Positions 46,421 to 56,090 of a stretch of DNA of 64,000 nt are shown piece by piece; the stretch's first letter is position 1, and each line of letters opens with the position of its first letter. The notes under the pieces were generated by a model. That model was not told the DNA's origin and did not search any database. It saw only the letters and a list, made by a program, of their open reading frames with translations. The position numbers and the translations under genes are program-made. Source of the DNA: Sediminibacterium sp. (lineage in GTDB: Bacteria; Bacteroidota; Bacteroidia; Chitinophagales; Chitinophagaceae); contig JAFWCB010000006.1 of assembly GCA_017537025.1 (NCBI GenBank), positions 124,001-188,000 of the forward strand. The letters are read 5' to 3'.

Positions 46421-47416
46421 TTATTTACGAGCAATATGCTGCTCTCGCAGCAATAAATCGGTTAAAACAATAGCTGTCACAGCTTCCAAAACCACCGGAA
46501 CACGTAAAGCGATACATAAATCGTGACGCCCTTTCACTGAAAAATTTTCCACGGCTTGTGAATCCCAATTCCAGGAAGCTTGTTCTTTAGGTGTAGAAGA
46601 AGTTGGCTTCACTACTACTCTATACACCAATTCATTACCATTGGTGATTCCGCCTACTACTCCGCCTGAATGGTTTGTTTTAGTAGTACCGGCCTCATCA
46701 ATTTGAGAATCGTTATGATCTGAGCCAAACATTTTTGCTGCCGCAAAGCCGGCTCCAAATTCTATGCCTTTGATGGCCGGGATGGAAAAAACAGCGTGAC
46801 TAATAACTGATTCTACCGAATCAAAAAAATGCTCCCCTAAGCCTACCGGCAATCCGCTCGTTCTGCTCTCAACAATACCACCAATGCTGTCTTTTTGGTC
46901 GATCGCTTTTTGTAAGCCTTTATCTAGATCTTGCTCACCACCGATCTCAAGTATAGTTGCCTTTGTGATAATATTTTTTTGTGCAATAATTTTCTTGGCA
47001 ACAACTCCGGCAGCCACTAAACAGGCCGTTAATCTTCCGCTGAAATGCCCTCCACCTCTATAATCTTCATGACCCCCATATTTAACATGTGCAGTAAAAT
47101 CTGCATGTCCGGGTCGGGGAATTGATCTATGTTTATCATAATCGCCACTACGCGTATTCTTATTTTCAAAAAAAATAGCTATCGGTGCACCCGTAGTTTT
47201 ACCATTAAAAATACCACTCTTAAAAATAGGTATATCATCTTCCTTTCTCGGGGTAGTTCCTTTTAATACACCACCCTTTCTTCTTTCCATATCTGTTTCA
47301 AAATCTGAGACGGCAATAGGAATACCTGCCGGACAACCATCTAATACAAAACCAACACTCTCACCATGAGATTCGCCGAAAATATGTATTCTAAATAGGG
47401 TACCGAAGGAGTTCAT
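46421..47416 (-). CDS. aroC: Chorismate synthase
   Basis: A 331-residue FMN-dependent enzyme that makes chorismate from EPSP, the last shikimate step. Signatures are FRIHIFGESHGESVGFVLDGCPAG, RRKGG, RPGHADFT, GGGHFSGRLTACLVAAG and HNDSQ, with a late DLCIALRVPVVLEAV. Length is slightly below the common 350-390. Its ATG directly abuts a 7-base tandem repeat array (47417-47450). It is near the end of the operon that starts at pheA. Confidence 0.97.
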   Translation of the reverse strand: MNSFGTLFRIHIFGESHGESVGFVLDGCPAGIPIAVSDFETDMERRKGGVLKGTTPRKEDDIPIFKSGIFNGKTTGAPIAIFFENKNTRSGDYDKHRSIPRPGHADFTAHVKYGGHEDYRGGGHFSGRLTACLVAAGVVAKKIIAQKNIITKATILEIGGEQDLDKGLQKAIDQKDSIGGIVESRTSGLPVGLGEHFFDSVESVISHAVFSIPAIKGIEFGAGFAAAKMFGSDHNDSQIDEAGTTKTNHSGGVVGGITNGNELVYRVVVKPTSSTPKEQASWNWDSQAVENFSVKGRHDLCIALRVPVVLEAVTAIVLTDLLLREQHIARK

Positions 47417-47469: not shown

Positions 47470-48762
47470 TTAATCAATAATAGCTTTTGCACCTAATAAG
47501 GTTAGGTGTTCAAAAAAGTTAGGGTAAGATTTATTTATCGCCTGGGCTTCTTCGATCACCACCTCTCTATCTGCGCGTAAAGCAGCAATGGCACATGCCA
47601 TGGCAATACGATGGTCGTGCCGGGAGTGAACTGTGCCCCCTTTTATATTTCCTCCTTTCACTAACATCAAATCGCCCTGTAAAATTATTTCGATACCCAA
47701 TTTAGCAAATTCTTCTTGTAAGGTTAACCCCCTATCGCTCTCTTTATGTGCTAACCTATTTACCCCCTCTATAGCTGTTGTTCCCGAGCAACATGCAGCT
47801 AAAGCCACTAGTGGAGGAAATAAATCCGGGCAATCAGTTGCATTAAAATGAAAGGCTTTCAAAGGCAAGTTTCTAACTTCAATTTGTTTCTCCAGTACAG
47901 ATAACCCGGCACCGGCATCACTCAATGCTTGCAAGATCGCTTTATCTGCCTGGGTTGAAAAAATATCCAGGCCCTCAACTATAATATCGCCCGCAATAGC
48001 ACCTGCAACTAATAAAAATGCTGCACCACTCCAATCGCCTTCAACGGTATAGGTATAAGGTGAATGGTTAGACCCCTCCTCGCCTTCGGCTCGTCGGGAT
48101 AACATACCATTAAAATGAAAAACAGTATAATCTTCGTGTGTAACCCCCCAACCAAATTCGTTCAGCACTTGTAACGTTAGATCTATATAAGGTTTACTTT
48201 TCAAATTATGAACACGTATCGTTTTACCGTTAGCCCCCGCAGCTGCATATGACATTAATAGTCCTGTTAAAAATTGCGAACTCAACGAACCATCGATTTC
48301 AATATCTGCAGGAATTAATGGCCCTTGAATATGTAAAGGCAATTTGCCGGCATTCGATTGTATACTTACCTGTAATTGTGGAAAAATAGCATCAAAAAAA
48401 TCCATGGGTCTGGTTAGTAAGCTACCCGTTCCTTGTATGGTTATGGCTTGTTCACTCAATGCTGCAATTGGTGTGAACATACGTATGCCTAATCCACTTT
48501 CCCCGCAATTCATTTCACTATTTACAGGATTAACACCCTGCGAAACAATAACGAGTTCACCTTGTTCTTCGAAGGCAAAAGTGGCTCCTAATTTTTGAAT
48601 AACATCTAATGCTGCCTTGTCATCATTACTGATCCCAGGATTTTTTATAACTGTAGTACCCTTTCGTAACAAAGCGGCTGCGCAAGCTCTTTGCATACTA
48701 CTCTTACTGGCTGGCGCATATATATTGCCTGCTACTTTACCCGGTTTAATCCTAACAATCAT
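47470..48762 (-). CDS. aroA: 3-phosphoshikimate 1-carboxyvinyltransferase (EPSP synthase)
   Basis: A 430-residue enzyme joining shikimate 3-phosphate and phosphoenolpyruvate. It contains the N-terminal APASKSSMQRACAAALL, the CGESGLGIRMFTPIAAL block, SSQFLTGLLMSYA and the C-terminal KESDRGLTLQEEFAKLG and HDHRIAMACAIAAL. The usual LGNAGT is replaced by NCGESGLG, as in the more divergent class of EPSP synthases, which are often glyphosate-tolerant (inference). It starts 2 bases after the aroB stop. Confidence 0.95.
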   Translation of the reverse strand: MIVRIKPGKVAGNIYAPASKSSMQRACAAALLRKGTTVIKNPGISNDDKAALDVIQKLGATFAFEEQGELVIVSQGVNPVNSEMNCGESGLGIRMFTPIAALSEQAITIQGTGSLLTRPMDFFDAIFPQLQVSIQSNAGKLPLHIQGPLIPADIEIDGSLSSQFLTGLLMSYAAAGANGKTIRVHNLKSKPYIDLTLQVLNEFGWGVTHEDYTVFHFNGMLSRRAEGEEGSNHSPYTYTVEGDWSGAAFLLVAGAIAGDIIVEGLDIFSTQADKAILQALSDAGAGLSVLEKQIEVRNLPLKAFHFNATDCPDLFPPLVALAACCSGTTAIEGVNRLAHKESDRGLTLQEEFAKLGIEIILQGDLMLVKGGNIKGGTVHSRHDHRIAMACAIAALRADREVVIEEAQAINKSYPNFFEHLTLLGAKAIID

Positions 48763-48764
48763 CC

Positions 48765-49796
48765 CTATAACTTAAACTGTTTAAATATTTCTTGTAGTTG
48801 CACCAACAGAATAGGTTGCACAACTGCTTTGCCCGTTTTTTCCAAGAGAATATAATGCATCGATACCCCATCACCCTTTTTATCTTTCAATAAAACTTTG
48901 AACGCTTGCTTGGCATCAAAATCAGCAATAGTTGGTAATCCATATTTTTGCAGTAAGGATATTAAACGGGGAACTTCTTTATAAAATTTTAATTGCGCAG
49001 AAATCAAAGCTGCATAGGTCATACCGATACTGATGGCTTGCCCGTGACTTAACTCGTATATATTTTCAATAGCGTGACCGAGTGTGTGGCCAAAGTTCAA
49101 CAACTTCCTATCTCCTTTTTCAAACTCATCGTCTACAACTACTTTAATTTTAATCATTGCATTTCGCTGAATCAATGATGCTAGCGCATTTGTATCTTTC
49201 TTATATTTTGCAATAGAATTTTGCTCTAGTTCAGCAAACATTTTTGCATCTTTTATGGCTGCATGTTTAATTATTTCTGCAAAACCATTTCTCCATTCTA
49301 CATCAGGCAAGGATTTGAGTAAGCTAAAATCGTATAATAAAAATTCAGGTTGCCGAATGAGTCCGACCATATTTTTATATATGCCCACATCAATGCCATT
49401 CTTTCCTCCAATAGCTGCATCAACCATGGCTAATAAAGAAGTAGGAATAAACCCAAAACGAATTCCACGCATATAGATACCGGCAGCATAGCCGGTAATA
49501 TCCGTAATTACACCTCCACCCACACCAATTAAAATAGATTGCCTATTAGCACCCATTTTAATTAACTGATCAATCAATACATCTACGGTTTGTTGTACTT
49601 TATATTGCTCCCCCGCTTTTAATACAATCGTATTCCAAGGTTTAAATAGTTTTTTATGCTTGGCAAATACGTGGGTATCAGTTACTAAAAAAGCATGTTC
49701 CTTCGCCAGCAATTTCTCTAAGTAAGAAAAAGCGGCATCGAAATAAAAAGTAGTACTACTGCTACCGAATAAAATTTTTTTGATCTTCATTATCAA
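48765..49796 (-). CDS. aroB: 3-dehydroquinate synthase
   Basis: A 343-residue NAD- and metal-dependent enzyme that cyclises DAHP. Visible: VGGGVITDITGYAAGIYMRGIRF (dinucleotide and substrate loop), PTSLLAMVDAAIGGKNGID and the metal-binding HTLGHAIENIYELSHGQAISIGM. It is a little shorter than the E. coli enzyme. Translation may begin at either of two ATGs six bases apart (MIMKIKK). A 7-base repeat array lies in the spacer to the upstream DAHP synthase gene. Confidence 0.96.
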   Translation of the reverse strand: MIMKIKKILFGSSSTTFYFDAAFSYLEKLLAKEHAFLVTDTHVFAKHKKLFKPWNTIVLKAGEQYKVQQTVDVLIDQLIKMGANRQSILIGVGGGVITDITGYAAGIYMRGIRFGFIPTSLLAMVDAAIGGKNGIDVGIYKNMVGLIRQPEFLLYDFSLLKSLPDVEWRNGFAEIIKHAAIKDAKMFAELEQNSIAKYKKDTNALASLIQRNAMIKIKVVVDDEFEKGDRKLLNFGHTLGHAIENIYELSHGQAISIGMTYAALISAQLKFYKEVPRLISLLQKYGLPTIADFDAKQAFKVLLKDKKGDGVSMHYILLEKTGKAVVQPILLVQLQEIFKQFKL

Positions 49797-49802
49797 GTTT
49801 TT

Positions 49803-49830
49803 CCTATCGCCTATCGCCTACCGTCTACTG
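49803..49830. repeat. 7-base tandem repeat array between the DAHP synthase and aroB genes
   Basis: Plus-strand units CCTATCG, CCTATCG, CCTACCG and TCTACTG in exact 7-base register. The last unit contains the stop codon of the DAHP synthase gene (49825-49827), so the array has extended into coding sequence. Confidence 0.8.
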
Positions 49831-50910
49831 ATTCATAATCTTATTCTGATGATTAATGCTCTCCATATGAACCGCATCAAAATACTTAGTGATAAATTCT
49901 TTACTCAATCCCATTTTTTCACCGTTTGCAAATGCTCTTTCTAAAATAGCATTCCAACGATTGGTTTGCAAAATGGTGATATTATTATCCTTTTTGTACT
50001 GGCCAATCTTATCCGCTACTTTCATTCGTTGACCAAGTAATTGTAACAGTTCATCATCCAGCTGATTAATTTGCGCACGCATTTTTTCCATATTAGCGTG
50101 TAATTCTTCAGAGTTGATATCTTCTTTTCTCCAGATGATAGATTCTATCATTTCACCCAATTTCTCAGGTGTGATTTGTTGCTTGGCATCACTCCAAGCA
50201 TTATCCGGATCGATATGGCTTTCAATAATTAATCCATCAAAATCAAGGTCAATCGCTTTTTGTGCCACGTCCAACAAAATATCTCTTCTTCCACAAATAT
50301 GAGAGGGATCATTAATCAATAACATACCCGGGTTACGACGTTTCATCTCAATAGCCAAATGCCACATGGGGGCATTGCGATATTCTGTATTACCATAAGA
50401 GCTGAAACCGCGATGAATCAGACCGATATTTTTAATACCTGCTTTTGCTACACGCTCAACAGCACCGATCCATAATTCTAAATCGGGATTAATCGGGTTT
50501 TTAATAAGCACCGGCACATCCACACCTTTCAACGCATCAGCAACTTCTTGAACACTGAAGGGATTTACAGTGGTTCTGGCTCCAATCCACAGCACATCTA
50601 TATCAAAATGCAAGGCATCTTCTACCTGCTTACCGGTTGCTACTTCTACTGCAACGGGCAATCCGGATATTTTTTTAGCTTGTTGTAACCAAGGTAATCC
50701 TTTGGTACCAATACCTTCAAAACTTCCGGGGCGTGTACGTGGTTTCCAAATACCTGCACGCAAAATATCTACCTTGCCGGTAGCTGCTAAACGAGTTGCT
50801 GTTTGCAACACTTGCTCCTCTGTTTCAGCACTGCAGGGGCCTGAAATTACGAGCGGGCGCTTCGCTACAATTTCATTGATGTTTGTTTGTTGTGTTGTTG
50901 CCTGTTCCAT
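49825..50910 (-). CDS. Bifunctional DAHP synthase / chorismate mutase
   Basis: A 361-residue fusion. Residues 1-260 are a type I-beta DAHP synthase: LVISGPCSAETEEQV, ILRAGIWKPRTRPGSFEGIG, WIGARTTVNPFSVQEVA and INDPSHICGRRD, making DAHP from PEP and erythrose 4-phosphate. Residues ~270-361 (MEKMRAQINQLDDELLQLLGQRMKVADKIGQYKK) are an AroQ-type chorismate mutase that feeds pheA and tyrA. The mutase domain may also provide feedback control by prephenate, as in other DAHP synthase-mutase fusions (inference). It is the first common-pathway gene after the helicase. Confidence 0.96.
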   Translation of the reverse strand: MEQATTQQTNINEIVAKRPLVISGPCSAETEEQVLQTATRLAATGKVDILRAGIWKPRTRPGSFEGIGTKGLPWLQQAKKISGLPVAVEVATGKQVEDALHFDIDVLWIGARTTVNPFSVQEVADALKGVDVPVLIKNPINPDLELWIGAVERVAKAGIKNIGLIHRGFSSYGNTEYRNAPMWHLAIEMKRRNPGMLLINDPSHICGRRDILLDVAQKAIDLDFDGLIIESHIDPDNAWSDAKQQITPEKLGEMIESIIWRKEDINSEELHANMEKMRAQINQLDDELLQLLGQRMKVADKIGQYKKDNNITILQTNRWNAILERAFANGEKMGLSKEFITKYFDAVHMESINHQNKIMNQ

Positions 50911-50921
50911 AATATATGATA

Positions 50922-50947
50922 GTTACTTAGTTTACTTATTTACTTAT
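50922..50947. repeat. Short-period repeat between the helicase and DAHP synthase genes
   Basis: Plus-strand units GTTACTTA, GTTTACTTA and TTTACTTA give a loose 8-base period. The array overlaps the helicase stop codon (50944-50946). It is less regular than the other arrays and AT-rich, so the assignment is weaker. Confidence 0.5.
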
Positions 50948-52623
50948 CTTCTGCCTCCCGAATCTGCATCGTTCATGCGAATCCTTCTGCCTTTATAATT
51001 CTTACCATCCAGTGCACGGATCATTTGTTGTGCTGCACTCTGTTCTATTTCTATCCAACTATTCATATCCTTCATATCAATTTTTCCTAACACCTCTTTT
51101 CTTAGATCACTCATATCTAAAATGAATTGTAAGAAGCTGGCTTTATAAAAACCATCTTTAGTACCGAGATTAACAAATAATCGGCTGTATCCACCACCTG
51201 TTTTATACGCTTTACGGGAATCCCCTCTTCCCTGGTCGCGAACACGATCATTACCCTGACTTCTTTCTCTTTCCCTATCTTTTTTACTACGATCACGAAT
51301 ATTCAAGTCCTCGGCATTTTCGTAATATTTCAAGAAACGATCGAACTCCATGGCAGCCACTCGCTTTAATACCTCTTCCTTATCTACGTTTGCAAATTTT
51401 TCTGCAAGCATCGGAACATAGGTTTCATAATCACCGTGACTAATATCTGCTGATAATAATTTATCCATGAAATGAAAGAATTGTTTTCTACAAACATCTT
51501 TTCCCGAAGGAATATCGAGCTTATGAAAAGCAGATTTATTGATTCTTTCAATTTGGTTAAGCTTATACATTTCTTTAGCATGTATAATAGAGATACAGAT
51601 ACCTTGATTACCGGCACGACCTGTTCTACCACTACGGTGTGTATATACTTCTACATCATCGGGTAATTCATAGTTGATAACATGGGTGATCCCTTGCACG
51701 TCGATACCACGTGCTGCTACATCTGTTGCAATTAATAACTGTAAGCTCTTATCGCGAAATTGTCCCATTACTTTATCCCGCTGTGCCTGGGTAAGATCTC
51801 CATGTAAGGCATCGATATCATATCCTTCTCTTGTTAATCTTTCAGAAATTTCTTGAGCATCCATTTTGGTACGCGTGAAAATAATACCATAGATACCGGG
51901 ATTAAAATCGATAATACGTTTTAATGTTTCATAGCGATGCATGGCAGTGGTTACATAAAACTGATGATCGATACTTTTATTGGCCGTATTTACTTTACCT
52001 ACTGTTACCTCTTTGGGTTCTTTCATGTAACGCTGACTCACTTTACGAATTTCTGGAGGCATGGTCGCAGAAAATAACCAAGTGCTATCGCGCTTAGGCG
52101 TATTTTTTAAAATAAATTCTATATCCTCCTTAAAGCCCATGTTCAGCATTTCATCGGCTTCATCCAACACTACATATTGAATTTGCTCGAGGTTAATGGC
52201 TTTTCGTTCGATTAAATCAATTAATCTACCGGGGGTAGCCACTACAATTTGAACACCGCGTTTGATGTCTTTTATTTGCAATCCGATAGAGGCTCCGCCA
52301 TATACAGCCACAACAGAAACTCCTGTTATGTATTTTTTAAAGAGTTCTATCTCTTTTACAATTTGCAAGCAAAGTTCCCGGGTAGGGCAAACAATAAGTG
52401 CTTGCGGATATTTTGCTGCTGCATCAATAATGTGTAATAACGGTAAGCCAAAAGCAGCCGTTTTACCTGTTCCTGTTTGCGCCAATCCTATAAAGTCTTT
52501 GGTGCCGCTCAGCAGCACCGGAATCGCCTGTTCCTGTATTGCTGTTGGGGTTTCATACCCCAGTTCCTTGGTTGACCGAATCAATCGCTCATCAATTCCC
52601 AACCCTTCAAAAGTCGTACTCAT
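50944..52623 (-). CDS. DEAD-box RNA helicase with DbpA-type RNA-binding domain
   Basis: A 559-residue ATP-dependent RNA helicase. Motifs in order: Q motif near PTAIQEQAIPV, I AQTGTGKTAAF, Ia PTRELCLQI, II DEADEM, III SATMP, IV-V IATDVAARGIDV and VI HRSGRTGRAG. After an Arg-rich linker, residues ~475-555 (YSRLFVNLGTKDGFYKASFLQFILDMSDL) match the DbpA C-terminal RNA-binding domain. Relatives act in ribosome assembly. Its position within an aromatic biosynthesis operon is odd; a TACCTTTG element upstream suggests it also has its own promoter. Confidence 0.95.
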   Translation of the reverse strand: MSTTFEGLGIDERLIRSTKELGYETPTAIQEQAIPVLLSGTKDFIGLAQTGTGKTAAFGLPLLHIIDAAAKYPQALIVCPTRELCLQIVKEIELFKKYITGVSVVAVYGGASIGLQIKDIKRGVQIVVATPGRLIDLIERKAINLEQIQYVVLDEADEMLNMGFKEDIEFILKNTPKRDSTWLFSATMPPEIRKVSQRYMKEPKEVTVGKVNTANKSIDHQFYVTTAMHRYETLKRIIDFNPGIYGIIFTRTKMDAQEISERLTREGYDIDALHGDLTQAQRDKVMGQFRDKSLQLLIATDVAARGIDVQGITHVINYELPDDVEVYTHRSGRTGRAGNQGICISIIHAKEMYKLNQIERINKSAFHKLDIPSGKDVCRKQFFHFMDKLLSADISHGDYETYVPMLAEKFANVDKEEVLKRVAAMEFDRFLKYYENAEDLNIRDRSKKDRERERSQGNDRVRDQGRGDSRKAYKTGGGYSRLFVNLGTKDGFYKASFLQFILDMSDLRKEVLGKIDMKDMNSWIEIEQSAAQQMIRALDGKNYKGRRIRMNDADSGGRR

Positions 52624-52666: not shown

Positions 52667-53506
52667 CTATTTTAATATTCTTTTTATGCCATTTGCGTTT
52701 TCTATTAATTCTTGTAAGTAGGCATAATTTTCTTTTTCCAAACAAGACTTAAATTTTCTCAACTGAGAAATATGTTCATTTAATACATCTAATACATTCT
52801 CCCTGTTTTGCATAAAAACAGGAACCCACATAGCCGGGTTACTTTTAGCAAGCCTTACGGTACTCTCAAAACCCGCACTGGCCAATTCAAAAATAGCATC
52901 CTCTTCTTTTTCTTTTTCTAAAACGGTATTGGCTAATGCAAAAGAAGTGATATGAGAAATATGGCTGATATAAGCTACGTGCATATCATGATCTGCAGCT
53001 TGCATATACAGTAAATGCATATCTAATAGCCGATATAGTTTTTCCACCAATGCTAAAGCATCCTCGGCAGTTTCTTCTTTCCCACATATAATCGTCGCTT
53101 TTTTGGCGAAGGCCTGATCTACCGCTGCCTCGGGACCACTATTTTCGGTACCCCACATAGGATGTGTAGCTACGAATCGGGCTCTGTTAGGATGATGGGC
53201 AACGGCCTCGCAAATAGATTTTTTAGTTGAACCTACGTCCATGATAACCTGCTTATCTATCAAGTCTAAAATACCCGGTAATATTTCTTCGGCAACATTG
53301 ATAGGGGTAGATAGAATAATTAAATCCGATTGTTGCACTGCTTTTTCCACTGAAAGAATTTCATGCACCAATCCCAACGATAATGCTTTGGCAGCATGAT
53401 CGGGGTTTAGTTCAACACCTAATACCCTGCTAGCAAAACCCTTTTGCTGCAGCACCAGCGACATGGAGCCGCCAATTAATCCTGTACCTATTATTGTTAC
53501 TACCAT
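52667..53506 (-). CDS. tyrA: Prephenate dehydrogenase
   Basis: A 279-residue NAD(P)-dependent enzyme that makes 4-hydroxyphenylpyruvate for tyrosine. The Rossmann motif is IIGTGLIGGSMSLVLQ, followed by SDLIILSTPI, DVGSTKKSICEA and VATHPMWGTENSGPEAA with the catalytic His. AYISHISHITSFALA is the dimer-domain signature. It lacks an ACT regulatory domain. Its ATG abuts a 7-base repeat array. It lies between the aminotransferase and helicase genes in the operon. Confidence 0.96.
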   Translation of the reverse strand: MVVTIIGTGLIGGSMSLVLQQKGFASRVLGVELNPDHAAKALSLGLVHEILSVEKAVQQSDLIILSTPINVAEEILPGILDLIDKQVIMDVGSTKKSICEAVAHHPNRARFVATHPMWGTENSGPEAAVDQAFAKKATIICGKEETAEDALALVEKLYRLLDMHLLYMQAADHDMHVAYISHISHITSFALANTVLEKEKEEDAIFELASAGFESTVRLAKSNPAMWVPVFMQNRENVLDVLNEHISQLRKFKSCLEKENYAYLQELIENANGIKRILK

Positions 53507-53540
53507 TGACTACTGACTATTGACTATTAACTACTGACTT
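53507..53540. repeat. 7-base tandem repeat array directly before tyrA
   Basis: Plus-strand units TGACTAC, TGACTAT, TGACTAT, TAACTAC and TGACTT in exact 7-base register. The array begins at the base adjoining the tyrA start codon and covers the stop codon of the aminotransferase gene (53517-53519), whose last residues are thus repeat-encoded. Confidence 0.85.
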
Positions 53541-54689
53541 CACCCTCTCAATCGCCTCTTCAAATTTTTCAACCGATCCGCATAAACTAATTCTGATATA
53601 ATTATTTCCTGCCGACCCAAAAATACCACCGGGTGTAATAAATGTATTTGCCTGATATAAAATTTCATCACTTAATGCATATCCATCTTTGTAACTGGCA
53701 GGTATAGCTGCCCACACAAACATGCCTGTTTGGGTTTTGCTATAATTACATTTGAGCAGATCGAGTAATGCAAATACTTTTTCTCTGCGTGCTGCATAAA
53801 TGGAGTTGAGTTCTTGATACCAACTTATATCCAGCGTTAAAGCTTTAGCAGCAGCCAGTTGAACGGGTAAAAACATCCCACTATCCATATTACTTTTGAA
53901 AGTAAGGATTTCATCAATCCTTTCCTTAGCGGCACATAACATTCCTACACGCCACCCGGCCATATTTACACTCTTGCTTAAAGAGTTTAATTCAATAGCT
54001 ACTTCTTTAGCCCCATCAATTGATAGTAAACTTTTAGGTTGCTCATTCAATACAAAGCTGTAGGGGTTATCGTGACAAACAAGGATATTATTTTTTTTAG
54101 CGAAGGCGATTATTTTTTCGAAGAGCTTGGTGGATGCCGATTTACCTGTAGGCATATGCGGATAGTTCACCCACATTAATTTTACTTTAGATAAATCGCC
54201 GGATGCCAGTTTATTAAAATCAGGTTCCCAATCATTTGTAGCAGAAAGTTCATAATAAACAGGTATACCGCCTGCTAGTTTTACCGCACTGGTATATGTA
54301 GGGTAGCCCGGGTTAGGGATAAGTACTTCATCCCCTTCCTGTAAGTACGTCATACATATATGCATGATCCCTTCTTTACTTCCTATTAGCGGTAATACTT
54401 CACTATCTGCATCAAGTGATACACCATACCAAGTTGCATACCATTGTGCAATGGCATTTCTTAAAATGGGTGAGCCTTTATACGATTGATAGGCATGTAC
54501 ATTGGGTTTACAACTCTCTTCCGCTAATACTTGAATGATACTTGGATGTGGTGGTAAATCGGGGCTTCCAATACCCAAATTGATAATATTTTTTCCCGCT
54601 TTATTGAGCTGATCTATTTCACGCAATTTTTGGGAGAAGTAATATTCCCCAATGCCTGCCAATCGTTTTGCTGTTGTAATATGCATCAT
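53517..54689 (-). CDS. Class I/II aminotransferase, likely aromatic amino acid transaminase
   Basis: A 390-residue PLP enzyme of fold type I. Features are INLGIGSPDLPPHPS, the loop LIPNPGYPTYTSAV, VNYPHMPTGKSA (usual NPTG replaced by HMPTG), CHDNPYSFV with the PLP Asp, and SLSKSVNMAGWRVGM with the Schiff-base Lys. It resembles LL-diaminopimelate/aspartate-type transaminases. Position between pheA and tyrA suggests it makes phenylalanine and tyrosine from the keto acids; that is inferred. Its start overlaps the pheA stop by one base (TAATG). Confidence 0.88.
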   Translation of the reverse strand: MMHITTAKRLAGIGEYYFSQKLREIDQLNKAGKNIINLGIGSPDLPPHPSIIQVLAEESCKPNVHAYQSYKGSPILRNAIAQWYATWYGVSLDADSEVLPLIGSKEGIMHICMTYLQEGDEVLIPNPGYPTYTSAVKLAGGIPVYYELSATNDWEPDFNKLASGDLSKVKLMWVNYPHMPTGKSASTKLFEKIIAFAKKNNILVCHDNPYSFVLNEQPKSLLSIDGAKEVAIELNSLSKSVNMAGWRVGMLCAAKERIDEILTFKSNMDSGMFLPVQLAAAKALTLDISWYQELNSIYAARREKVFALLDLLKCNYSKTQTGMFVWAAIPASYKDGYALSDEILYQANTFITPGGIFGSAGNNYIRISLCGSVEKFEEAIERVKSVVNSQ

Positions 54690-55558
54690 TATCCTTTAAT
54701 GGGTTTTCCTTTTTTATAGGTGCCAAATAGTTTTAAGCTATTCGTAAGGGGTTCAATTTTCTGGAGTACTTTATGTAATGCCGAAATATCATCGAACTCC
54801 ATATCTGCATAAAATCCATATTTAAAATTACTCCCCGGTATGGGCATACTTTGGAGTTTACTCAGGTTAATATTGCCATTAGCAATGGTACCTAATACTT
54901 TTGCTAAAATACCTTTTGAATGATCTGTTTGAAAATAGAGAGATGCTTTGTTAGCATCGGCTACTTCAATTGATTTACGACTTGGTTGAAGCACTAAAAA
55001 TCGAGTAATATTATTTTTTTGAGTTTGAATATCAGGCGCGATGATTTCCAAATTGAATAATTCTGCCGATAGTTTACTGGCAATAGCGGCCACATGTTTA
55101 CTTTTATGTTGCTGAACATGTTTAGCACTCAGGGCAGTATCTTCTGTTTCTATCAGTTTCCATTTATTTTCTTCTAAAAAATGAAGGCATTGTAAAATAG
55201 CCATAGGGTGGCTATGCACTTCCCGGATGTCTGCTAAACTTACTCCTTTATTGACGAGTAAGTTTTGGCTGATCGAAAGATATACTTCTCCGATAACTTG
55301 CAGGTTTGCCTTTTGTAATAAATTGTAATTCGGTAAAATACTTCCCGCAATAGAATTTTCAATTGCCATTACGGCACCTGCAGATAATGAGGGATCCACG
55401 GCTTTTTTAACCAATTCTCTGAAAGAAGCGCAGGGTAATACTTCCACCGATTTTCCAAAAAAATGGCGGGCAGCAACTTGGTGAAAACTGCCCTCATAGC
55501 CCTGAATACAAATCGGTTTTGTACCGGTTACTGTATTATTTTTTTTCTCTTGAGTCAT
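54689..55558 (-). CDS. pheA: Prephenate dehydratase with ACT domain
   Basis: A ~290-residue enzyme converting prephenate to phenylpyruvate. Catalytic blocks are ICIQGYEGSFHQVAARHFF, AVMAIENSIAGSILPNYNLL and the TRF motif in KNNITRFLVL. The ACT domain (SLYFQTDHSKGILAKVLGTIANGNINLSKLQ) binds phenylalanine for feedback inhibition. The ATG at 55558 (MTQEKKNN) is preferred: a longer in-frame start at 55663 would translate the attenuator terminator and leader in a different frame. It is the first structural gene of the operon. Confidence 0.95.
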   Translation of the reverse strand: MTQEKKNNTVTGTKPICIQGYEGSFHQVAARHFFGKSVEVLPCASFRELVKKAVDPSLSAGAVMAIENSIAGSILPNYNLLQKANLQVIGEVYLSISQNLLVNKGVSLADIREVHSHPMAILQCLHFLEENKWKLIETEDTALSAKHVQQHKSKHVAAIASKLSAELFNLEIIAPDIQTQKNNITRFLVLQPSRKSIEVADANKASLYFQTDHSKGILAKVLGTIANGNINLSKLQSMPIPGSNFKYGFYADMEFDDISALHKVLQKIEPLTNSLKLFGTYKKGKPIKG

Positions 55559-55560
55559 AC

Positions 55561-55587
55561 AAAAAAAAATCCCGGTGTTAACCGGGA
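55561..55587 (-). terminator. Attenuator terminator immediately before pheA
   Basis: On the minus strand TCCCGGT - TAAC - ACCGGGA is a perfect 7-base GC-rich stem with a 4-base loop, followed by nine T. The U-tract ends two bases before the pheA ATG and about 24 bases after the leader-peptide stop codon. Its placement in front of the gene, not behind one, marks it as an attenuator. Confidence 0.9.
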
Positions 55588-55653
55588 CCTTATTGATTGT
55601 TTTAAAAGTATTATGCTTTTGCAAAAAGGACCCGGCTACTTTTTCTAAAGTAG
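55582..55653 (-). promoter_or_regulatory. Alternative leader RNA pairings (antiterminator) of the pheA attenuator
   Basis: Minus-strand CTACTTT (55653-55647) pairs with AAAGTAG (55642-55636) around an AGAA loop, inside the leader-peptide codons. The next segment CCGGGTCC (55635-55628) can pair with GGTCCCGG (55589-55582), the 5' arm of the terminator, with seven of eight pairs formed. That pairing would exclude the terminator. The folding was worked out by hand. Confidence 0.65.
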
Positions 55654-55691
55654 AAATAACCAAAAAAGTAAAACCAGGTATTTATTGTCAT
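55611..55691 (-). CDS. Aromatic leader peptide of the pheA operon (attenuation)
   Basis: A 26-codon frame starting ATG at 55691 and stopping at TAA 55613-55611. Residues 6-15 read WFYFFGYFYF: nine aromatic residues in ten (one Trp, five Phe, three Tyr). This is the hallmark of leader peptides such as PheL that sense charged aromatic tRNA. The codon run lies just upstream of and over the first leader hairpin, and the stop is followed by the terminator before pheA. A ribosome stalled by scarce Phe/Tyr/Trp-tRNA would free the antiterminator. It has no similarity expected outside leaders. Confidence 0.85.
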   Translation of the reverse strand: MTINTWFYFFGYFYFRKSSRVLFAKA

Positions 55692-55705
55692 TTTCTGCAT
55701 TCATT

Positions 55706-55714
55706 GTAAAGATA
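55706..55714 (-). promoter_or_regulatory. Candidate -7 element of the pheA operon
   Basis: Minus-strand TATCTTTAC differs from TAnnTTTG at one position and lies 15 bases before the leader-peptide ATG. No convincing -33 TTTG was found in the AT-rich DNA upstream. Confidence 0.35.
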
Positions 55715-55792: not shown

Positions 55793-55824
55793 AAAAAAGC
55801 CCCTCCGTGGAAACGGAGCGGCTT
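55793..55824 (-). terminator. Intrinsic terminator after the small lipoprotein gene
   Basis: On the minus strand AAGCCGCTCCGT pairs with ACGGAGGGGCTT (one mismatch) around a TTCC loop and is followed by a run of T. It ends the lipoprotein transcript before the pheA promoter region. Confidence 0.8.
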
Positions 55825-55833
55825 CTAACGATT

Positions 55834-55876
55834 GCTTGCCATATGAAAAAAATGTTCGGCTACGGTATTGGCAAGC
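55834..55876 (-). other. Hairpin in the 3' untranslated region of the small lipoprotein gene
   Basis: GCTTGCCA (55834-55841) and TGGCAAGC (55869-55876) are perfect inverted arms with a 27-base loop, between the lipoprotein stop and its terminator. Together they form a structured 3' untranslated region of about 110 bases. This could be a stability element or a 3'-derived small RNA. Confidence 0.4.
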
Positions 55877-55910
55877 TCACTTAACCATTCGCATCGGGTA
55901 GCCCTTATAA

Positions 55911-56090
55911 TTACTTCTTAGTAGCAGTATCTACTTTCTTAGCAGCAGTATCTACTTTTGCAGCAGCAGTATCAACTTTCACAGCAGCAGTATCTACTTT
56001 CGCAGCAGTAGTATCAGCTTTAGCTTCTTTATTTTCACCACCGCAGGCAGCAAAAGCGCCAATTACAAGAACGAATAATAACTTTTTCAT
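55911..56090 (-). CDS. Small alanine/lysine-rich repeat lipoprotein
   Basis: A 59-residue lipoprotein precursor starting MKKLLFVLVIGAFAACGG, with the lipobox Cys at residue 16. The mature part consists of VDTAAxK heptads (about five copies: KVDTAAV, KVDTAAA, KVDTAAK...), encoded by 21-base tandem repeats. Such Ala/Lys/Asp repeats probably form an extended helix in the periplasm, somewhat like a miniature Lpp; this is inference. It diverges from the sigma factor gene, and a palindrome lies between them. An upstream in-frame start adds 23 residues and would destroy the signal. Confidence 0.75.
   Translation of the reverse strand: MKKLLFVLVIGAFAACGGENKEAKADTTAAKVDTAAVKVDTAAAKVDTAAKKVDTATKK

Follow-up and report, generated by a model that had tools for sequence, protein, structure and literature searches.

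The DNA in front of pheA in a Sediminibacterium sp. genome raises the question of whether a short reading frame crowded with codons for aromatic amino acids, together with the hairpin that follows it, acts as an attenuator, and if so, which amino acids it senses. We addressed this question within a window of 64,000 nucleotides, the whole stretch of DNA analyzed here, and by comparison with related loci. Comparative sequence evidence points, with a probability of about 0.9, to a ribosome-mediated transcription attenuator that senses phenylalanine and tyrosine together, placed before an aromatic operon. That it is an attenuator of the pheL/trpL working type is well supported.

Leader anatomy and the operon downstream

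The frame with WFYFFGYFYF recognized in the initial annotation was retained, while its length of 26 codons was not. An in-frame ATG lies at 55700, nine bases upstream of the earlier start at 55691. Since the leaders of relatives begin MQT, MKA or MQM at this position and a −7-like box (Table 1) ends 6 nt upstream of it, the leader probably has 29 codons. Transcription is predicted to start about 5 nt downstream of the box, near the leader ATG.

Table 1. Features of the pheA leader and its surroundings (positions in the window)
Feature	Position	Strand	Basis or remark
−7-like promoter box TATCTTTA	55707..55714	−	inferred; TAnnTTTG consensus with one mismatch; position −12 to −5 per PMC9723704
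Leader ORF MQKMTINTWFYFFGYFYFRKSSRVLFAKA-stop	55611..55700	−	probably 29 codons; start at ATG 55700
Control codons WFYFFGYFYF	55647..55676	−	sequence reading and codon comparison
Segment 1, protector arm	55647..55678	−	overlaps control codons; can pair with segment 2
Segment 2, antiterminator 5' arm AGCCGGGTCC	55628..55637	−	inside leader ORF
Segment 3, terminator 5' arm	55581..55589	−	alternative partner of segment 2
Segment 4, terminator 3' arm	55568..55576	−	
Nine-T tract	55561..55569	−	overlaps terminator foot
pheA, prephenate dehydratase	54689..55558	−	best NCBIfam match, under curated cut-off
PLP-dependent aminotransferase	53517..54689	−	next gene after pheA; NCBIfam matches under cut-offs
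tyrA, prephenate dehydrogenase	52667..53506	−	above curated cut-off
DEAD-box RNA helicase	50944..52623	−	between tyrA and DAHP synthase; under curated cut-off
DAHP synthase / chorismate mutase	49825..50910	−	under curated cut-offs
aroB	48765..49796	−	above curated cut-off
aroA	47470..48762	−	above curated cut-off
ORF after aroA	46421..47416		presumably aroC, which it resembles
Second conserved RNA	55793..55905	−	candidate sRNA
Gene preceding second RNA	55912..56090	−	presumably small lipoprotein-like

The terminator (55589-55568 plus the T tract) ends 2 nt ahead of the pheA ATG (55558), as had been described, and the nine-T tract is present. Its stem of 11 pairs, five of them G-C, is however not perfectly Watson-Crick, with two G-U pairs read from the sequence near its foot. 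The short distance between terminator and start codon, which had been singled out as a feature, is not conserved, the leader-to-pheA distance varying widely among relatives. The claim that a leader segment can pair with the terminator 5' arm was confirmed: the duplex formed by segment 2 in the window has an energy of −21.7 kcal/mol versus a shuffle mean of −6.7, and none of 100 shuffles was as good. Folding of the 138-nt window leader gave a z of −3.0 against shuffles (3/200 as good), and its minimum free energy fold pairs CCUGGUU with AGCCGGG.

A pattern of four plus four F/Y codons around one free codon had 2 matches in the 3.19-Mb genome, and the reversed control pattern had 2 as well. Because the control matches equally often, this genome-wide count is uninformative, and the evidence has to come from conservation instead.

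Downstream, the operon that had been described as running from pheA and tyrA to aroC holds from pheA through to aroA, and the ORF at 46421-47416 that follows is presumably aroC. A DEAD-box RNA helicase gene interrupts the row of aromatic genes. Upstream of the leader lies a second conserved RNA, a candidate for a new sRNA, which has a near-invariant TTTCATATGGCAAGCAATCGTTA and a covarying terminator hairpin, and in which an upstream GCTTGC can pair with GCAAGC. Its exact 14-mer GGCAAGCAATCGTT was present in 62 fetched loci, the alignment was made from 40 of 60 full-length copies that were less than 90% identical to one another, and the window copy had no Rfam match at E ≤ 1.

Spread of the leader and pairing of its arms

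The best matches among named records carry the labels Flavihumibacter (95% identity in pheA) and Sediminibacterium, next to other Chitinophagaceae and unplaced Bacteroidetes. The set of best pheA matches comprised 30 loci, one of which is the window's own; L028 has no upstream DNA, and all 29 others carry an F/Y-rich leader. Such a leader was also found in 77 of the 80 named records that matched best, out of at least 589 matches, and in 35 of 60 loci sampled throughout the phylum. In the remaining three named records (L035, L041, L072) a contig end cuts the leader, and segment 2 and the terminator are present. The 60 phylum loci were our own pick of about one per genus, 59 from the 215 genomes whose match was strong enough to be listed and one from the best-match set. 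Grouped by the rank shared with the window, leaders occurred in 1/1 loci at genus, 4/4 at family, 4/5 at order, 22/23 at class and 4/27 at phylum level, and these last four have, among the 27, the pheA sequences closest to the window's. At the other 25 loci, a search of 500 nt found no short ORF that reaches 5 aromatic residues in 10. Besides L028, L035, L041 and L072, the loci L182, L187, L194-L196, L202 and L205-L207 were left out of the counts, these loci being partial, having little upstream DNA or belonging to other genera. Three loci (L030, L127, L128) have tandem leaders, two each, every one with its own hairpin and T tract as read by eye.

Operon content was checked at 20 loci, comprising 12 of the 35 with a leader and 8 of the 25 without a leader ORF. 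Downstream of pheA, a DAHP synthase match lay within about 4 kb in 12/12 of the former versus 0/8 of the latter; leader presence goes along with operon content. Within the same distance, the 12 leader loci had the aminotransferase in 8 cases and tyrA in 7. Both genes are present in G037 and G134, though these loci are without a leader. Among the 80 named loci, the aminotransferase is, by the criterion we used, next to pheA in 77 and overlaps pheA by one base in two more.

The initial annotation had proposed aligning the pheA upstream regions of related genomes; when such regions were compared, the aromatic run proved to be conserved and compensatory changes fell on the alternative stems. Against 100 shuffles per locus, the antiterminator (segments 2:3) ranked in the top five at 132 of 134 loci; the exceptions are L127 (33/100) and L125 (7/100). 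An intrinsic terminator between leader ORF and pheA was identified by automatic detection in these 134 loci; for L094, L095, L097, L121, L122 and L142, where none was reported, a hairpin is visible by eye, with a T tract within the stretch for three of them. Since the locus sets share records (e.g. L003 and L034), the 106 distinct leaders among the 134 were used for the counts of codons, cores and ribosome masks. A perfect three-way core of at least 5 pairs was present in 100 of these 106 and not in the other 6.

The antiterminator and terminator arms covary, and the cores of different clades differ in step on all three arms. Triple changes were seen among close relatives in L037 (CCAGG/CCTGG/CCAGG) and L042 (CCGAG/CTCGG/CCGAG), and further in L029 (CGAGAC/GTCTCG/CGAGAC) and in L133 (CGAGG/CCTCG/CGAGG). 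In 38 loci, the locus's own antiterminator partners paired at a mean of −16.5 kcal/mol versus −10.6 for swapped partners; the own partner was in the best 5% for 17/38, with a median rank of 2. Segment 2 is translated in differing frames among relatives (SRVVFVKA, RPGMLLL) and is therefore conserved as RNA. The antiterminator most commonly starts 9 nt past the last control codon (62/134 loci), and a ribosome reaches about 9 nt beyond its A site. The conserved leader, the antiterminator and the covarying arms thus bear out the earlier proposal of leader-peptide attenuation in front of an aromatic operon.

Amino acids probably read by the leader

Both F and Y occur in the run of all 106 distinct leaders. 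Over all runs, F codons number 560, Y codons 344 and W codons 41. Codon changes were counted between nearest neighbors (81 pairs), related sequences that are not independent of one another. F/Y codons underwent 128 single changes: 64 were silent and 39 exchanged F and Y, which leaves F or Y in place in 103 cases, and 15 of the other 25 were N/Y. This retention of 103/128, uncorrected for shared ancestry, compares with 2/9 expected under equal base changes.

The initial annotation had counted tryptophan as a third sensed amino acid. A single leader sensing Phe, Tyr and Trp would fit the presence of W in the run of 41 leaders, the window's included, and the fact that the common-pathway genes of the operon feed tryptophan synthesis too. 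However, the other 65 leaders have no W in the run. Where it occurs, it stands at the first run codon in 28 of 41 leaders, and several other leaders show R or G codons just ahead of the F/Y run at this place (read by eye). Segment 2 pairing, examined over the 106 leaders, is strongest near the beginning of the run, which in the window is the W stretch contained in the CCUGGUU:AGCCGGG pairing. In addition, trpE has a WWW leader of its own in this genome. Given the 65 leaders without W and the separate trpE leader, tryptophan was rejected as a sensed amino acid in the main reading, and we regard a three-way aromatic switch as unlikely.

Control by phenylalanine alone, as in pheL, with the Tyr codons as mere A/U-rich neighbors, seems improbable to us as well. 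F outnumbers Y in the runs and is the last run codon in 93 of 106 leaders. Moreover, five of the 12 leader loci that were checked show no tyrA match within about 4 kb. These five count against joint sensing of Phe and Tyr, which one would expect most readily of operons that always include tyrA. Set against this are the Y codons in the run of every distinct leader, the exchanges between F and Y that make up 39 of 64 non-silent changes at F/Y codons, and the tyrA gene in the window's own operon.

A ligand-binding riboswitch or a T-box before pheA would likewise appear as a conserved structured 5' RNA with a terminator, and is very improbable in view of the codon-level conservation. No Rfam match reached its gathering score in the window, and in 11 related loci only one tRNA did (L030). 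The best of the weak matches in the leader was Phe_leader itself (RF01859; 25.6 bits, E = 0.027, model positions 1-125); membership in this family was rejected, the score being far under the 55-bit gathering cut-off. A plain promoter-proximal terminator with a chance ORF is scarcely credible, for although F/Y codons are common in A/T-rich DNA, the leader is conserved down to its codons, its arms show triple changes, and 0/25 loci without a leader have a comparable ORF.

Proposed mechanism, related leaders and known systems

For the attenuator sensing Phe and Tyr jointly, we propose the following course. When Phe- and Tyr-tRNA are charged, the ribosome would reach the stop codon and mask segment 2, whereupon the terminator 3:4 would form and transcription would stop near 55561. 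When Phe or Tyr is scarce, the ribosome would pause in the run and mask segment 1. Segment 2 would then bind segment 3, and RNA polymerase would continue into pheA and the aromatic genes. The two alternative partners of segment 2, namely segment 1 where the run starts and segment 3 in the terminator 5' arm, are those brought out by the sequence comparison.

An equilibrium model with a masked ribosome fits this classical scheme for most leaders. With the ribosome placed over the final three codons of the run, 1:2 pairing decreases in 100/106 leaders; with it placed at the stop codon, 2:3 pairing decreases in 86/106 and increases in 8/106. By itself, the model yields no switch for the window. 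In window RNA without a ribosome, before segment 4, 2:3 is favored already (0.87); it stays at 0.83-0.89 at most stall positions and drops around codons 18-19 and from codon 28 to the stop. In the complete window RNA, the terminator is favored at every ribosome position (0.63-0.92). Because the 2:3 profile is nearly flat and the full RNA always favors the terminator, the switch needs timing beyond the equilibrium model.

The leaders may also lack nearly all of a 5' UTR. In 92 of 123 contexts, the 90 nt preceding the run include a TAnnTTTG box, a count that excludes the window's own box, which is one base off. The leader ATG lies 4-9 nt after the box in 74 contexts, and 7 nt after it in 46. As the promoter box is placed at −12 to −5 (PMC9723704), this spacing predicts a 5' UTR of 0-5 nt, and the leader mRNA probably starts within a few nt of the AUG. 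As a coarse control, such spacing was seen for 2 of 50 window ORFs of at least 150 aa; 43 have no box, some of them surely operon-internal. Leaderless mRNAs make up 5.5% in F. psychrophilum (PMC9723704), and UTRs shorter than 10 nt about 3.7% in B. thetaiotaomicron (PMC7366714). The spacing is 17-21 nt in 6 of 8 class-level loci with a box, which suggests that the near-leaderless form is limited to the window's family and close kin.

Two further leaders were found in the same genome (both on G000:C17): His-rich MNKNIHTHHHFLPIG-stop with HTHHH before hisG (L174), and Trp-rich MNLINKHWWWHTNSVRGL-stop with WWWH before trpE (L193), each with a terminator-like hairpin and T tract by eye. Of 12 hisG loci fetched, 11 were examined and all have a His leader; of 14 trpE loci fetched, 10 were examined and 9 have a Trp leader, the tenth having 159 nt upstream. 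For ilvD, 11 loci were fetched and 7 examined, 2 of which clearly have a branched-chain leader; in the window's own genome none was found within 500 nt. The Ile/Val-rich leader ORFs before ilvD are MFKGINHNVNIINTIIIVVVIIVPALNGGGALI in L199 (G010) and MNNKQLSVILSIIISVVNIY in L197 (G037).

The pheL-pheA attenuator of E. coli (RF01859) has its control codons in a leader ORF, together with alternative hairpins and a terminator before pheA. The window shares all of these parts and differs in its Tyr codons beside Phe, its long operon and its predicted near absence of a 5' UTR. In the multivalent leaders of E. coli ilvGMEDA and thrABC, one leader likewise combines the codons of several amino acids, in their case other amino acids in another phylum. 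The Sinorhizobium meliloti trpL attenuator transcript starts at the leader ATG (PMC7298713), as predicted for the window, but is an alphaproteobacterial Trp leader.

Within the Bacteroidota, the earlier statement that no such example had been described was too strong. PMC9723704 mentions "strong clues" of leader-peptide attenuation before amino acid operons of Flavobacteriaceae and a conserved structured 5' element before pheA; this element concerns the same phylum and gene as the window leader, and leader-peptide attenuation is suspected there. The main-text passages of that paper give no sequence, codon content, antiterminator or covariation for the pheA element. Leader-like sORFs have been remarked on for Bacteroidota (PMC7366714). 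Among the hits examined in the openly readable literature, no Bacteroidota precedents were found beyond these two papers. The basic idea for Bacteroidota pheA is thus already hinted at in print; what appears to be new is the joint Phe/Tyr code, the predicted near-leaderless mRNA, the tandem copies and the wide spread.

We lean somewhat towards a broader interpretation, in which attenuation would be an old and general habit of the Bacteroidota. Here it would take the form of an interchangeable Phe/Tyr switch, near-leaderless and sometimes tandem, with leaders for His and Trp built in the same way in the same genome, the lone Trp codon being an RNA-pairing element and not a sensor. The analysis places a complete covarying attenuator set in the Bacteroidota and provides codon-level evidence for two amino acids read as one signal, with an anatomy that is testable in culturable species. 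If the leaders are truly near-leaderless, they would show coupled translation-transcription control in a group described as having no Shine-Dalgarno sequences (PMC9723704).
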